Below the pieces are notes generated by a model. That model was not told the DNA's origin. It made no database searches and was given only the letters and a program-made list of their open reading frames with translations. From Candidatus Saccharimonadota bacterium (GTDB taxonomy: Bacteria; Patescibacteriota; Saccharimonadia; Saccharimonadales; UBA10212), in the NCBI GenBank assembly GCA_016187125.1, contig JACPKF010000004.1, positions 23,868-78,933 on the forward strand: a stretch of 55,066 nucleotides of DNA, given 5' to 3'. A program made the position numbers and the translations under genes. Below are positions 23 to 46,236 of the stretch, one piece after another (position 1 is the stretch's first letter; each line of letters starts with the position of its first letter).

Positions 23-937
23 TCAGGCGCCGACTTTATCCTTGCGCGGCCGTTGCTTAGCATTTTGTTCGACGTATTCAATAATCTTCTCGGCCACGTT
101 ACGGCCGGTAACTTGTTCGATCCCAAAACCCGGACTGGAGTTTACCTCCAAAACCAGCGGTCCGCGTTTACTGCGCATAAGATCAACCCCGCAAATCGAA
201 AGACCCATAGCCCGGGCAGCTTTGACGGCTACCTTTCTTTCTTCATCCGTTAACTTGATTGAAGAACCCTCCCCTCCTTGATGAAGATTGGAACGAAATT
301 CATCAACACTTAAGTTCTGGCGTTTCATACTGGCCACAACTTTGCCGCCGACTACAAAAGCTCGCATATCAGTACCGGCAGATTCCTCAACATACTCTTG
401 GAGTAAGATGTTAGTACCTTCCTGGTCCATCAGGTAAAAGGATTGAATTACAGATTTTGCGGCCTTTTTGGTTTCTGCCAAAACCACCCCTCGGCCATGC
501 GTACCACTAGCCAGTTTGATAATGATCGGCGGACCATTGAGTTCCTCCATTAAGCGGTCAATATCACCGGCACCACGCGAGAAAATCGTTTTAGGCACAC
601 CGACTCCAGCTCGGGCCAGTAGTTGCATAGCCCGCAGTTTATCGCGTGAGCGGACTATGGCAATCGAACTAGCCGTGCTAAAAACTCCTTGCATCTCAAA
701 CTGACGGACAATGGCTGTACCATAACGAGTGTACGAAGAAGCAATCCGCGGAATTATGGCGTCAAAGCCCTCTAGGGTTTTGTCCTTATAGATTACTATC
801 GGATTATTGGCCTGAATTCTGGCCTCGCAAAGCCCATAGTTAATAATGCGAACTTCATGGCCTCGCTTTAGAGCCTCCTCTTTTATACGCTTAGTGGAGT
901 AGTTACCAGGACCTTTAGATAAAATCGCTATTTTCAT
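23..937 (-). CDS. rimK: RimK-like ATP-grasp ligase (ribosomal protein S6 glutamate ligase family)
   Basis: ATP-grasp motifs (PPIIIKLASGTHGRGV, EVNSSPGFGIE). The track start at 952 is a GTG; the likely start is the ATG at 937 (MKIAILSKGPG). Confidence 0.88.
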   Translation of the reverse strand: MKIAILSKGPGNYSTKRIKEEALKRGHEVRIINYGLCEARIQANNPIVIYKDKTLEGFDAIIPRIASSYTRYGTAIVRQFEMQGVFSTASSIAIVRSRDKLRAMQLLARAGVGVPKTIFSRGAGDIDRLMEELNGPPIIIKLASGTHGRGVVLAETKKAAKSVIQSFYLMDQEGTNILLQEYVEESAGTDMRAFVVGGKVVASMKRQNLSVDEFRSNLHQGGEGSSIKLTDEERKVAVKAARAMGLSICGVDLMRSKRGPLVLEVNSSPGFGIEQVTGRNVAEKIIEYVEQNAKQRPRKDKVGA

Positions 938-941
938 CCCG

Positions 942-1046
942 TTAGAACCCACTTACCTTCCGTACTATAATTAACGTCTGAACACGTGGGCATGCTTCAA
1001 GACACATATCAACATTGTAAGTTCTTTGGGTTCTAACGGGATTCAT
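942..1046 (-). CDS. Leader ORF MNPVRTQRTYNVDMCLEACPRVQTLIIVRKVSGF*, 5 nt before the rimK ATG
   Basis: Hand translation; same MNPVR start and F-TAA-CGGG-ATG ending as leaders at 14929 and 29397; below the ORF-track length cutoff. Confidence 0.6.
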   Translation of the reverse strand: MNPVRTQRTYNVDMCLEACPRVQTLIIVRKVSGF

Positions 1047-13334: not shown

Positions 13335-14924
13335 CTACTGGATTTTGATAGGTTTGAGGGCAATTTGTTTGATCTTTTTAGCAATCGGTTGGGCCTCTTC
13401 CAGCCCGAACATCGAAGACACTATAAAATGAACTACAAACGTCGGCAAAACTATAGCTACCAGCTTAGCTCCCAAAACGCTAAAGCCGCGATCGGTACTG
13501 ACAAGCGGTACCAGCGACACCATAATATAAGTCGTTAAAACGGTAAAACCGGTAACTGACAAAGTCCTGCCCACGCCACTCCAAAACTCTACGCCAAATA
13601 GTTTATGGTCTCGCCAGACCATAATAATAAGCAGCAGAAAGACTTCGAAAGCCGCCACAATTGACTGAGCCAAAGCCAGTCCAATTAAGCCGTAGGCGCT
13701 CGGTCTGGCCAGCGTGAAGACCAAGTAGACGTTTAGGCCGATGGCGAACAGCGAAACAAATAGCGGTGTTTTAGTATCTTTTTGGGCGTAAAAGTAGCGC
13801 GAAATGATGGCGTACAGAGTTCTAAAGATAATGGCACCGACTAAAAAGCCCAAAATTAAGGCAATTTCCGGCGCAATATTCTTAAAAATTAACCGGGCAA
13901 AGTAAGCGCGGCCAAAGTAAGCTACCACTCCAACCGGTAAAATAATCCAAATCATGGCCCGCAGAACCATCAAGAAGTCTTTCCGGAATAAATCCGGCCG
14001 ACCTTGGGCTAAGCGATCATTAAGCCTAGGAAAAGCTGCCGTAGCAATTGTCGTACCAATAAGTAATATTGGCACCAGATGCAGCATGTAAGCATTTTCA
14101 TAAAAAGTGATTGAACCTCTACCAAGCACACTGGCCCGATTAGTCTCCACGATACTGTTAATAGAGTCAATGCCTTGATCAATGGAACGTGGCGGCAGAT
14201 TTTTTAAGATGTGCCTAAAGTCCGGACTGCGCAGATTGAAGGTCGGCATATAACGAAAGCCCAAACCACCCAAGCCCAGGAGTACTATCAGAAGCTGCAA
14301 AATTGCTCCAGCCAAGGCTCCAACTCCTAGCCCTACTATGCCGAGACTATCTTTAAAAATATAGACGCTGGCAATGATGCAAACGTTATAAATAATCGGC
14401 CCCAGCGCAAAGAAGAAGAAACGGCCGAAAGTTTGCTGCAAAGATGTTAAAATTCCCGAAATCGTGAATAGCAACGGGTTGAGCGCAACAATCCGCATAA
14501 TGGTTACGGCGTCGTGCATTTGATCGGGGCCAAGATTATTACCGACCACCAGTCTTAGTAAGGGTTCGGTAAAAACTAGCAGGACAACACCAACAACCCC
14601 CATAATAATGCCCAGCAAATTGAGTAGGCCAGAGGTTATTTGCCAGGCTGATTTTTTATCGCCAGCGTGGAGTTTGTCGGCTAAAAAGGGCATAAAGGCC
14701 ACGCCCAGAGCCCCGGCAGCAATGGTATAGAAAAAGAAGTCGGGAATTTTGAAGGCCGCAAAATAGGCATCGGTTGTAATATGGCCCGGGCTATTGAAAT
14801 TACCATTGATAACCTGCGTTCGGATAAAACCAAGTAGCTGGCCGAATAAAGATGCCGCTACCAGCAGGGCCGCGGCACCACTAAGAGAAATACGTTGGTT
14901 AGCCCGGTTTAGCCATCGATTCAT
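13335..14924 (-). CDS. murJ: Lipid II flippase MurJ/MviN
   Basis: About 14 TM segments; GQLLGFIRTQVINGNF, AYFAAFKIPDFFFYTIAAGALGVAFMPFL. Confidence 0.88.
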   Translation of the reverse strand: MNRWLNRANQRISLSGAAALLVAASLFGQLLGFIRTQVINGNFNSPGHITTDAYFAAFKIPDFFFYTIAAGALGVAFMPFLADKLHAGDKKSAWQITSGLLNLLGIIMGVVGVVLLVFTEPLLRLVVGNNLGPDQMHDAVTIMRIVALNPLLFTISGILTSLQQTFGRFFFFALGPIIYNVCIIASVYIFKDSLGIVGLGVGALAGAILQLLIVLLGLGGLGFRYMPTFNLRSPDFRHILKNLPPRSIDQGIDSINSIVETNRASVLGRGSITFYENAYMLHLVPILLIGTTIATAAFPRLNDRLAQGRPDLFRKDFLMVLRAMIWIILPVGVVAYFGRAYFARLIFKNIAPEIALILGFLVGAIIFRTLYAIISRYFYAQKDTKTPLFVSLFAIGLNVYLVFTLARPSAYGLIGLALAQSIVAAFEVFLLLIIMVWRDHKLFGVEFWSGVGRTLSVTGFTVLTTYIMVSLVPLVSTDRGFSVLGAKLVAIVLPTFVVHFIVSSMFGLEEAQPIAKKIKQIALKPIKIQ

Positions 14925-14928
14925 CCCG

Positions 14929-15036
14929 TTAGAACCTCACCCTTGGCTTATAAAAATAATTTAACGTTGGATATCTGGAACAACTCCCACGTAAATTTAA
15001 GATGAAAGTTGCAGGCTGAGGTCTAACGGGATTCAT
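14929..15036 (-). CDS. Leader ORF MNPVRPQPATFILNLRGSCSRYPTLNYFYKPRVRF*, 4 nt before the murJ ATG
   Basis: Hand translation; 35-aa homolog of the leader at 29397..29504. Confidence 0.7.
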   Translation of the reverse strand: MNPVRPQPATFILNLRGSCSRYPTLNYFYKPRVRF

Positions 15037-15254
15037 ACTGCCCCAAATTATAAACTAGGTTCCGGCAAAATACCTGAGTAGTTTGAAGTCTTGCACGTAT
15101 TTCGCACTTAGCCATTGATGACAGATTGCAGCTCGAGCGAGCGAAAGCTTTCAATCCGAGGGAAGCATAACCATAGTTATGTTGAGTGAGGAATGAAAGC
15201 TTGTAGCCGTTCAGCTGTGATCTGGGGTGATGGAAAAGTGCCTTAGTCAAAATG

Positions 15255-28372: not shown

Positions 28373-29392
28373 TTACTTGGCTTTGATGTATTCGCTACGA
28401 CTCTGTGAGTCGTGGCCAGCGACAGCCTTTAGATCGTGGTAGTTATCGAAGTCATCGGTAATTTTTTGGCCCAAAATTTGCTCGAGCACGTTCTCTAAAG
28501 TTAAAACTCCCACAACTTCCTCGAAGTTGTTGACCACCACTAGCAAGTGCTGCTGGGATTTTAAGAAGGCATCGAGGGCTTGATGCAAAGTGTGTGATTC
28601 GCCGATAAAATGGACGCCGCCAATCATTATGTCGCGGACTGTGCCAGATTTTTCCAGGTTTTTTAACAAGTCTTTAATATAAAGAGCGCCAACAACTTCC
28701 AGATCTTGTAGCTTAGCAGCATCTTTTACCACTGGAAAATGAACGTGGCCGGTTTTATGCAGCTCGTCCATTAGCGTCGGCCCGATGGATTCGTCGGCTG
28801 CCAGCCATCTGACTTCTTTGGCCGGAGTCATGACCCGGCCGACTTTTTTATCGGCGAAACCTAGAGCGCCCTTGGCGATTTTGAGTTCACTAGCAGTGAT
28901 TCGGTTGTCTAGCTGAGAGGTCTGCCGCTCCAGTAGCTCTAGCAAGTCTTCTTTTTCATAAATCCTGCTATGGATTTTAGGCTGGTCAAAAAGCTTAGCT
29001 ACCCGAACTAATGCCGGCTGCAGAAAATCTACGACAGGCAAAATTATTGATGCAATAGCGCCGGAAGCTTGCCATAGCCAACTGCCCGGCCGAATTGTAA
29101 ACTTATCGTCTAAGAGCAGCCAGCTGGTAACTAATATAAAGACCGCTACCAGCCAACCCGAGATACTAGCCGCCAGTAGCAGTAAGACTGCGGCTGAAGT
29201 CGTACCGAGCACCAAGATAATGATTTTAAGTGAAGTTTGAAAGGCCAGCAATTTATAAAGAGCTTGAGTGTGTCTATTGCCACTTCTCGCCCGCCGGCGA
29301 AGTTCAGCCAGCGGTATGGTCTTAGAAACTTTAAAAAGCAAAATACACTTCGCTAGCACTACTGCCAAAAGTAATATGCCTATGGTTTTCAT
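28373..29392 (-). CDS. CNNM/CorC-type transporter-like protein with CBS domains
   Basis: VGRVMTPAKEVRWLAADESIGPTLMDELHKTGHVHFPVVKD, EEVVGVLTLENVLEQILGQKITDDFD. Confidence 0.82.
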   Translation of the reverse strand: MKTIGILLLAVVLAKCILLFKVSKTIPLAELRRRARSGNRHTQALYKLLAFQTSLKIIILVLGTTSAAVLLLLAASISGWLVAVFILVTSWLLLDDKFTIRPGSWLWQASGAIASIILPVVDFLQPALVRVAKLFDQPKIHSRIYEKEDLLELLERQTSQLDNRITASELKIAKGALGFADKKVGRVMTPAKEVRWLAADESIGPTLMDELHKTGHVHFPVVKDAAKLQDLEVVGALYIKDLLKNLEKSGTVRDIMIGGVHFIGESHTLHQALDAFLKSQQHLLVVVNNFEEVVGVLTLENVLEQILGQKITDDFDNYHDLKAVAGHDSQSRSEYIKAK

Positions 29393-29396
29393 CCCG

Positions 29397-29504
29397 TTAG
29401 AACCTCACCCTTGGCTTATAAAATTTGCTTGTCATGGGCAATTTGAAGCAGCTCCAACGCAAAGTTAGTGTGAAAGTTGCAGGCTGAAGTCTAACGGGAT
29501 TCAT
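29397..29504 (-). CDS. Leader ORF MNPVRLQPATFTLTLRWSCFKLPMTSKFYKPRVRF*, 4 nt before the CNNM-like ATG
   Basis: Hand translation; homologous to 14929..15036. Confidence 0.7.
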   Translation of the reverse strand: MNPVRLQPATFTLTLRWSCFKLPMTSKFYKPRVRF

Positions 29505-45643: not shown

Positions 45644-45928
45644 TTAAGCTGCTTGATTTCGTATTATCTGACGCAGTGTCACTTTGCCTTTGGTTGTTTT
45701 ATAGTACCTTTCGCGCCTAATGGCATCAAGTTTGGAGAGATGCCCTTCGAAATATACAAGTTCAACGGGTAAGCGTTTGGCTGTAGAGGTATTTTTGCCT
45801 TGACTATGCTCAGCGATCCGCCGGTTTAGATCATTGGTCGAACCAATGTAAAACTTACTGTCTTGGATTGATAATAAAACATATACGTACCAGAAAGTAT
45901 CCATAGGAAAATTATAGCCCCAAACCAC
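45644..45928 (-). CDS. GIY-YIG nuclease domain protein
   Basis: YVYVLLSIQDSKFYIGSTNDLNRRIAEH; start likely MDTFWYVYVLL. Confidence 0.85.
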   Translation of the reverse strand: MVWGYNFPMDTFWYVYVLLSIQDSKFYIGSTNDLNRRIAEHSQGKNTSTAKRLPVELVYFEGHLSKLDAIRRERYYKTTKGKVTLRQIIRNQAA

Positions 45929-46161: not shown

Positions 46162-46236
46162 TGGCTCCGGAGGCCGGACTCGAACCGGCAACCATTCGAT
46201 TAACAGTCGAATGCTCTACCATTGAGCTACTCCGGA
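46162..46236 (-). tRNA. tRNA-Asn (GTT) with encoded CCA
   Basis: TCCGGAGTAGCTCAATGGTAGAGCATTCGACTGTTAATCGAATGGTTGCCGGTTCGAGTCCGGCCTCCGGAGCCA folds as a cloverleaf. Confidence 0.95.

Follow-up and report, generated by a model that had tools for sequence, protein, structure and literature searches.

MITE-like elements in the start codons of Saccharibacteria genes, with GIY-YIG nuclease genes as their probable mobilising partners

The window, by which we mean the whole stretch of 55,066 nucleotides that was analysed, comes from a Candidatus Saccharimonadota genome of 828 kb in nine contigs. On its minus strand, murJ is preceded by a short open reading frame (ORF; MNPVR...KPRVRF) that runs from an ATG at 15036-15034 to a TAA at 14931-14929, just ahead of the murJ ATG (14924-14922). 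A sequence-only reading had described this ORF as a leader with a homologue before a CNNM gene; we located both as described, and the genes behind them are indeed MurJ (PF03023, E 2e-61) and, by Pfam and NCBIfam, a CBS/CorC-like protein. Beyond that reading, we found direct repeats at both ends, a third and more distant copy in the window (1046-942, class B, before rimK) and about 26 copies in the genome. The features concerned are these:

13335..14924, minus strand: murJ, lipid II flippase, the host gene (PF03023, E 2.3e-61; TIGR01695)
14924..15031, minus strand: class-A element before murJ, very probably mobile, 108 bp, with terminal inverted repeats TCCCGTTAGA ... TCTAACGGGA
14925-15030, minus strand: CCC..GGG core of this element, 106 bp
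15032..15036, minus strand: left copy of the target-site duplication, ATGAA, the original start codon and now the start of the leader ORF
14920..14924, minus strand: right copy of the duplication, ATGAA, the start codon of murJ (assigned in part from relatives with an empty site)
14929..15036, minus strand: bridging ORF of 35 codons, MNPVRPQPATFILNLRGSCSRYPTLNYFYKPRVRF and a stop, the stop lying 4 nt before the murJ ATG
15047..15052, minus strand: TATAAT, a −10-like box 10 nt before the leader ATG, suggesting a leaderless or short-leader promoter
29392..29499, minus strand: second class-A element, in the start codon of the CNNM/CBS-domain gene (28373-29392)
29397..29504, minus strand: its bridging ORF, MNPVRLQPATFTLTLRWSCFKLPMTSKFYKPRVRF and a stop, with the CNNM/CBS gene ATG at 29392
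937..1041, minus strand: class-B element in the start codon of a RimK-like ligase gene (23-937, with 937 as the likely true start)
942..1046, minus strand: its bridging ORF of 34 amino acids, MNPVRTQRTYNVDMCLEACPRVQTLIIVRKVSGF and a stop, before the RimK-family ligase

Read on the minus strand, the murJ start region is ATGAA-TCCCGTTAGACCTCA ... TGAGGTTCTAACGGGA-TGAATCG (hyphens mark the element boundaries), in which the second ATG is the murJ start. The element is bounded by direct repeats (ATGAA-TCCCGTTAGA...TCTAACGGGA-TGAA), and the A of the right-hand ATGAA doubles as its last base. Its flanking arms pair, as had been proposed (fold of −41.6 kcal/mol, z −5.1), and so do the inner arms CCTCA/TGAGG. 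The TATAAT reported upstream of the leader ATG is present at 15052-15047, at a spacing of 10 nt and not 11. The murJ and CNNM copies share the 27-mer AAGCCAAGGGTGAGGTTCTAACGGGAT, with two occurrences against none in 100 shuffles. The short bridging peptides belong to no family in Pfam or NCBIfam, and a scan of the window with the Rfam 15 covariance models at gathering score returned one tRNA and no match for the elements.

Start codons as insertion sites

A search for paired arms finds 21 copies in the host genome and 0-14 in relatives of the same family. Loci fetched from 16 related Saccharibacteria genomes gave 95 raw paired-arm hits, 86 of them with a start codon at both ends; the host genome holds 26 of these 86, and copy number ranges from 0 to about 26 inside one family. 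The remaining hits are mostly antisense or nested re-detections (L013, L059 and L065) and decayed ends; three have a start codon only on the right-hand side (L020, L035 and an arrangement nested at L013), and one copy (L117) has a GTG start and a mutated arm. The cores fall into size classes: A (106 nt), A' (109), B (103-104), C (98-101), D (about 63-77) and a full-length form of about 272-275 nt. One locus (L011) has a class-B element with an extra insert of about 87 nt and a bridge still open over 63 codons, and at two others (L013 and L038) the start of a gene, presumably rpmJ (ribosomal protein L36), carries CCCGTTAGA hairpins in nested or tandem arrangement. Across the phylum the strict pattern ATGRRTCCCGTTAGAG occurs in 7 of 145 genomes, a patchy and not a universal distribution, and the exact sequence ATGAATCCCGTTAGAGA is absent from viral contigs, giving no hint of phage carriage at that stringency.

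The element ends span about 10 bp (TCCCGTTAGA/TCTAACGGGA). Arm positions 3-9 are invariant and paired in 63 of 63 elements, although the search pattern itself demanded these positions; pairing at positions 1-2 and 11-14 was not imposed by the search, and the inner positions 11-14 pair through several combinations (C-G, T-A, T-G and A-T). These varied inner pairs, together with the z-score of the murJ fold, would fit a stem that is opened by a translating ribosome.

Target-site duplications of 4-5 bp (ATGRR) flank the elements, each inserted precisely at the downstream gene's start codon, and are present in 58 of 63 elements (full four-base match) and in 79 of the 86. When the two RTGNN flanks of each element are compared, NN matches in 59 of 63, against a mean of 21 and a maximum of 35 for shuffled partners; it is AA, GA, AG or GG, and TA once. 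A GTG on the left is usually accompanied by an ATG on the right, which is what an element that contributes the terminal A would produce.

Relatives with empty sites are found for two genes. The murJ start is filled in G000 and in G011 (TTTATAATTTAGCCAGG-ATGAAT-element), and empty in G005 and in G003, which belongs to the genus of G011 (TTTATACTTTCAGGCAGG-ATGAACCG). Likewise, ychF carries a GIY-YIG-encoding element in G283 (CTCTGTTAGTATATATGT-ATGAG-element) and is empty in G247 of the same genus (CTCTGTTAGTATATATGT-ATGACTTTATC), whose upstream flank is near-identical. Furthermore, the same gene start can hold different classes in different genomes (B at L019 and A at L099; A at L003 and B at L095), indicating that a given start codon was entered independently more than once. 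The best evidence of recent movement is a pair of elements (L316 and L317) that are 98.9% identical, lie on one contig and have unrelated flanks. The sequence-only reading had weighed its leader against mobile copies with no link to downstream genes: mobile copies are indeed what the duplications and empty sites indicate, whereas the link to downstream genes holds, because practically all copies are inserted at the start codon of a gene.

This position is not what insertion confined to the gaps between genes would give. In a census of RTGRR sites in the window, based on crude ORF calling with ORFs of at least 90 codons taken as genes, 106 intergenic sites were not gene starts and 23 gene starts fitted RTGRR (23/129, about 18%). 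As so few of the intergenic or start sites are gene starts, gap-confined insertions should mostly miss start codons, and the observed elements do not; nor does selection against insertion within genes explain the pattern, since insertions at intergenic sites should do no harm. A TATAAT-like box (at most one mismatch) lies 4-20 nt upstream of 48 of the 86 insertion sites, compared with 12 of 86 in an adjacent control stretch, and an AGGAG-type sequence precedes only 7 of the 86. With −10-like boxes common and AGGAG rare, many insertions appear to lie at the 5' ends of genes that are probably leaderless or have short leaders, although the closeness of −10 boxes is correlative and may be no more than a general feature of genes in this lineage. 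Interrupted starts in the host genome include those of murJ, the rimK-like gene, the CNNM/CBS gene, thrS, cysS, gatC, yraN, ftsH, recO and a response regulator; as essential genes are among them, their expression must survive insertion.

A full-length form with a GIY-YIG gene

Elements of about 272 nt with the same ends and duplications contain a single gene, a GIY-YIG nuclease of 93 amino acids read from the start codon of the host gene (for example, MSPVRAGFTYVYVLRSLKDG...LALTG and a stop). The protein matches Pfam GIY-YIG (PF01541, E 5.7e-16), its invariant columns include Y10, Y12, Y23, R31, H37, E69 and N83, and the closest solved structures by sequence are of the UPF0213/YhbQ type (PDB 1zg2 and 1ywl, E 2.7e-6). 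We scanned one genome per species and took the best 80 relatives. These are mostly from Patescibacteria (Saccharibacteria, and many lineages labelled Parcubacteria or Microgenomates); some lie in metagenome-assembled genomes labelled Omnitrophota, Planctomycetota and Syntrophaceae, for which binning errors are possible. Inverted ends of the CCCGTTAGAG type, among them coordinated variants (for example, CCCGTACGA/TCGTACGGG), are present in nearly all of the best 80. Of the GIY-YIG loci, 36 have start codons on either side, and in 26 of these the ORF begins at the host ATG and ends in an ATGA overlap with the host gene; the form is seen at L202-L207, among other loci.

Whether this nuclease moves the elements bears on how they are to be classified. 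On one account, which we regard as unlikely, the elements are mobile but the GIY-YIG gene is either cargo or only a homing function acting through double-strand breaks, and an unrelated host or transposon enzyme does the moving. GIY-YIG enzymes are generally known as homing or restriction nucleases, and we know of none that acts as an integrase or transposase; moreover, the host genome has many short copies and no full-length one. Against this account, GIY-YIG is the sole gene of the full-length elements, no DDE, HUH, serine or tyrosine recombinase gene was found between their ends, the end type is shared by nearly all of the best 80 relatives, and the longer elements found at loci whose left arm lacked a partner were all GIY-YIG elements. 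These observations make GIY-YIG the probable mobilising enzyme of the family. In the host genome we found no full-length GIY-YIG element with CCCGTTAGA ends, and the intact single-domain genes inspected there are without these ends, so that mobilisation in this genome would be past or in trans. One such gene lies in the window (45647-45895, minus strand), about 270 nt from a tRNA gene (46165-46236), and further intact single-domain GIY-YIG genes lie on C3 and C6.

The GIY-YIG form also occupies positions other than start codons. In two genomes (L283 and L299) it sits at a stop codon with TAAA duplicated, between genes that we take to be pgk and tpiA. At three loci (L309, L316 and L317) it lies in type IV pilin-like genes, exactly at G^FTLIE and in frame with the mature pilin; judging from the frame, which enters the pilin as ...LTG-FTLIE, prepilin peptidase cutting after the Gly could restore a normal pilin. 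Elsewhere, a GIY-YIG gene adjoins the 5' end of the RNase P RNA gene within an inverted repeat, CACATAACATTA/TAATGTTATGTG (L180, G011:C3), and another leads straight into a tRNA gene, presumably for tRNA-Glu (L194, G013:C29). At L196 and L198, GIY-YIG genes precede a gene start with other inverted ends (about CCGCCAAACTTTTTT / AAAAAAGTTTAGGCGG) and possibly represent a second family of the same kind.

Frames that bridge into the host gene

We define a bridge as a frame that is open from the left start codon to a stop 4 nt before the host ATG (TAA-CGGG-ATG) or to an ATGA overlap. In the gene sense it is open in 56 of 63 elements, compared with 12 of 63 in antisense (p 7e-16) and 10.0 +/- 2.9 for shuffled interiors. 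The larger set has a terminating bridge in 72 of 86 elements, three clean in-frame N-terminal fusions and 11 frames that are not clean bridges. As the class-A copies share common ancestry, their 21 open frames out of 21 are not 21 independent events, and copies reversed with respect to the gene provide a cleaner test: among eight reversed class-B copies the gene-sense frame is open in six and encodes an unrelated peptide, whereas the element-forward frame, kept in 21 of 24 forward copies, is closed in all eight.

The amino acids themselves behave differently. Across the 21 class-A copies, the leader frame has a dN/dS of 0.64, compared with 0.48 and 0.81 for the remaining sense frames and 0.57-0.75 in antisense, which gives no sign of purifying selection on the bridge amino acids in this class, and codon-position entropies are flat. 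As dN/dS in the leader frame is no lower than in the control frames, selection acts on a translatable bridge and not on the peptide, and it is incidental which amino acids the short copies encode. Of the earlier proposal that both peptide and stem are under selection, what survives is selection for translation of the frame; that the leader evolves like a protein is contradicted by the control frames, the flat entropies and the unrelated peptides of the reversed copies.

A regulatory leader peptide, causing arrest or attenuation and conserved with its RNA stem before a regulon, might still be suggested by the likeness of the class-A peptides (PQPATF...KPRVRF), the stable stem and the copies before orthologous genes (murJ and CNNM) in several genomes. 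This reading is nevertheless highly improbable: several size classes, as well as the reversed copies, encode unrelated peptides, the sites show duplications and empty counterparts, and one gene start (L019 and L099) carries class B in one genome and class A in another. The dN/dS control frames and the reversed copies lead us to reject a leader or arrest peptide. A riboswitch-like structured RNA regulator spread by duplication, with the ORF incidental, would draw on the arm-arm pairing with its several pair types at inner positions (10-14) and on the fold z-score, but we give it hardly any credence either, given interiors that are unrelated between classes, a strongly kept gene-sense frame that an RNA-only element would not need, and ATGRR duplications that insertion accounts for, and a known RNA family was rejected for want of any Rfam match.

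Proposed mechanism and known systems

Inverted ends, a duplication, the start-codon position, a rebuilt ATG, the open bridge, empty sites and a GIY-YIG form with the same ends can all be read from the sequences themselves, and our preferred interpretation, which we hold with high confidence, is that the murJ leader is a MITE-like start-codon element with a bridging ORF, whose GIY-YIG relatives are its probable mobiliser. An element would insert at an RTGRR start codon and duplicate TGNN, and its terminal A would rebuild the ATG of the host gene, in line with the ends, duplications and position observed. The original promoter and start codon would then drive the bridging ORF inside the element, with its stop 4 nt before the rebuilt start (TAA CGGG ATG) or overlapping it (ATGA). 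Ribosomes would presumably reach the host gene by termination-reinitiation, melting the arm-arm stem, which may render translational coupling obligatory. The GIY-YIG nuclease, in turn, would make a staggered cut and move the short copies as well as itself, acting in cis or in trans.

With somewhat less confidence, we consider it likely that these elements are a distinct kind in bacteria: a minimal GIY-YIG nuclease transposon and its miniatures, which home to translationally silent positions (start and stop codons and the prepilin site), rebuild the signal that they interrupt, express the nuclease from the start codon of the host gene and rely on a bridging frame, in place of splicing, to maintain expression of that gene. 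Our search, which covered open-access papers, found no published description of such elements, and the family is new in this sense. If correct, this would mean a mobile element that is built on a GIY-YIG nuclease, has no known transposase, is targeted to start codons and persists in essential genes (thrS, cysS, gatC, murJ and ftsH) without splicing. The family would also account for many of the small GIY-YIG genes of Patescibacteria and for short hypothetical ORFs starting with MNPVR, and it would offer a naturally occurring test of translational coupling in a setting where most gene starts have no Shine-Dalgarno sequence.

Several known systems share part of this behaviour. Rickettsia palindromic elements (RPEs) are short palindromic repeats that encode peptides and lie in coding genes in a manner compatible with translation (PMC10969869). 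The start-codon elements are likewise palindromic, peptide-encoding and compatible with translation; RPEs, however, lie in frame within ORFs, whereas the start-codon elements have a duplication, a frame that usually stops short of the rebuilt start and a form that encodes a nuclease. An RPE-type in-frame insertion inside an ORF was seen once, at L106 (66 nt, seven codons into the gene near position 124, adding 22 residues), against the 72 of 86 with a terminating start-codon bridge. From its sequence alone, we take the product of the L106 gene to be ribosomal protein S2 (rpsB). To our knowledge, no enzyme has been assigned to RPEs.

Bacterial MITEs are short, with terminal inverted repeats, target-site duplications, many copies and no enzyme of their own (PMC10969869, PMC2229807). 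The start-codon elements share the inverted repeats, the duplications, empty sites (murJ and ychF) and the many copies, but known MITEs derive from transposase-bearing insertion sequences and are not confined to start codons, whereas the partner here is a GIY-YIG gene. The closest solved relatives by sequence, the single-domain UPF0213/YhbQ proteins, are not known to us as parts of mobile elements.

Free-standing GIY-YIG homing endonuclease genes, as in phage T4 (PMC2988022), resemble the full-length elements in being small selfish GIY-YIG genes at conserved gene positions. The start-codon elements differ from them in their many ectopic sites, terminal inverted repeats, duplications and non-autonomous derivatives. 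In general, homing copies a gene to its allelic site and involves neither a duplication nor inverted ends. Finally, rRNA genes of Patescibacteria (CPR) have been described with GIY-YIG insertions that match no group I or II intron and were deemed to fall outside homing; the passages considered here do not mention inverted ends, duplications or start-codon sites (PMC11270868). Those insertions may be the same kind of element, and the family described here is a candidate explanation for intron-less GIY-YIG insertions in Patescibacteria rRNA genes.
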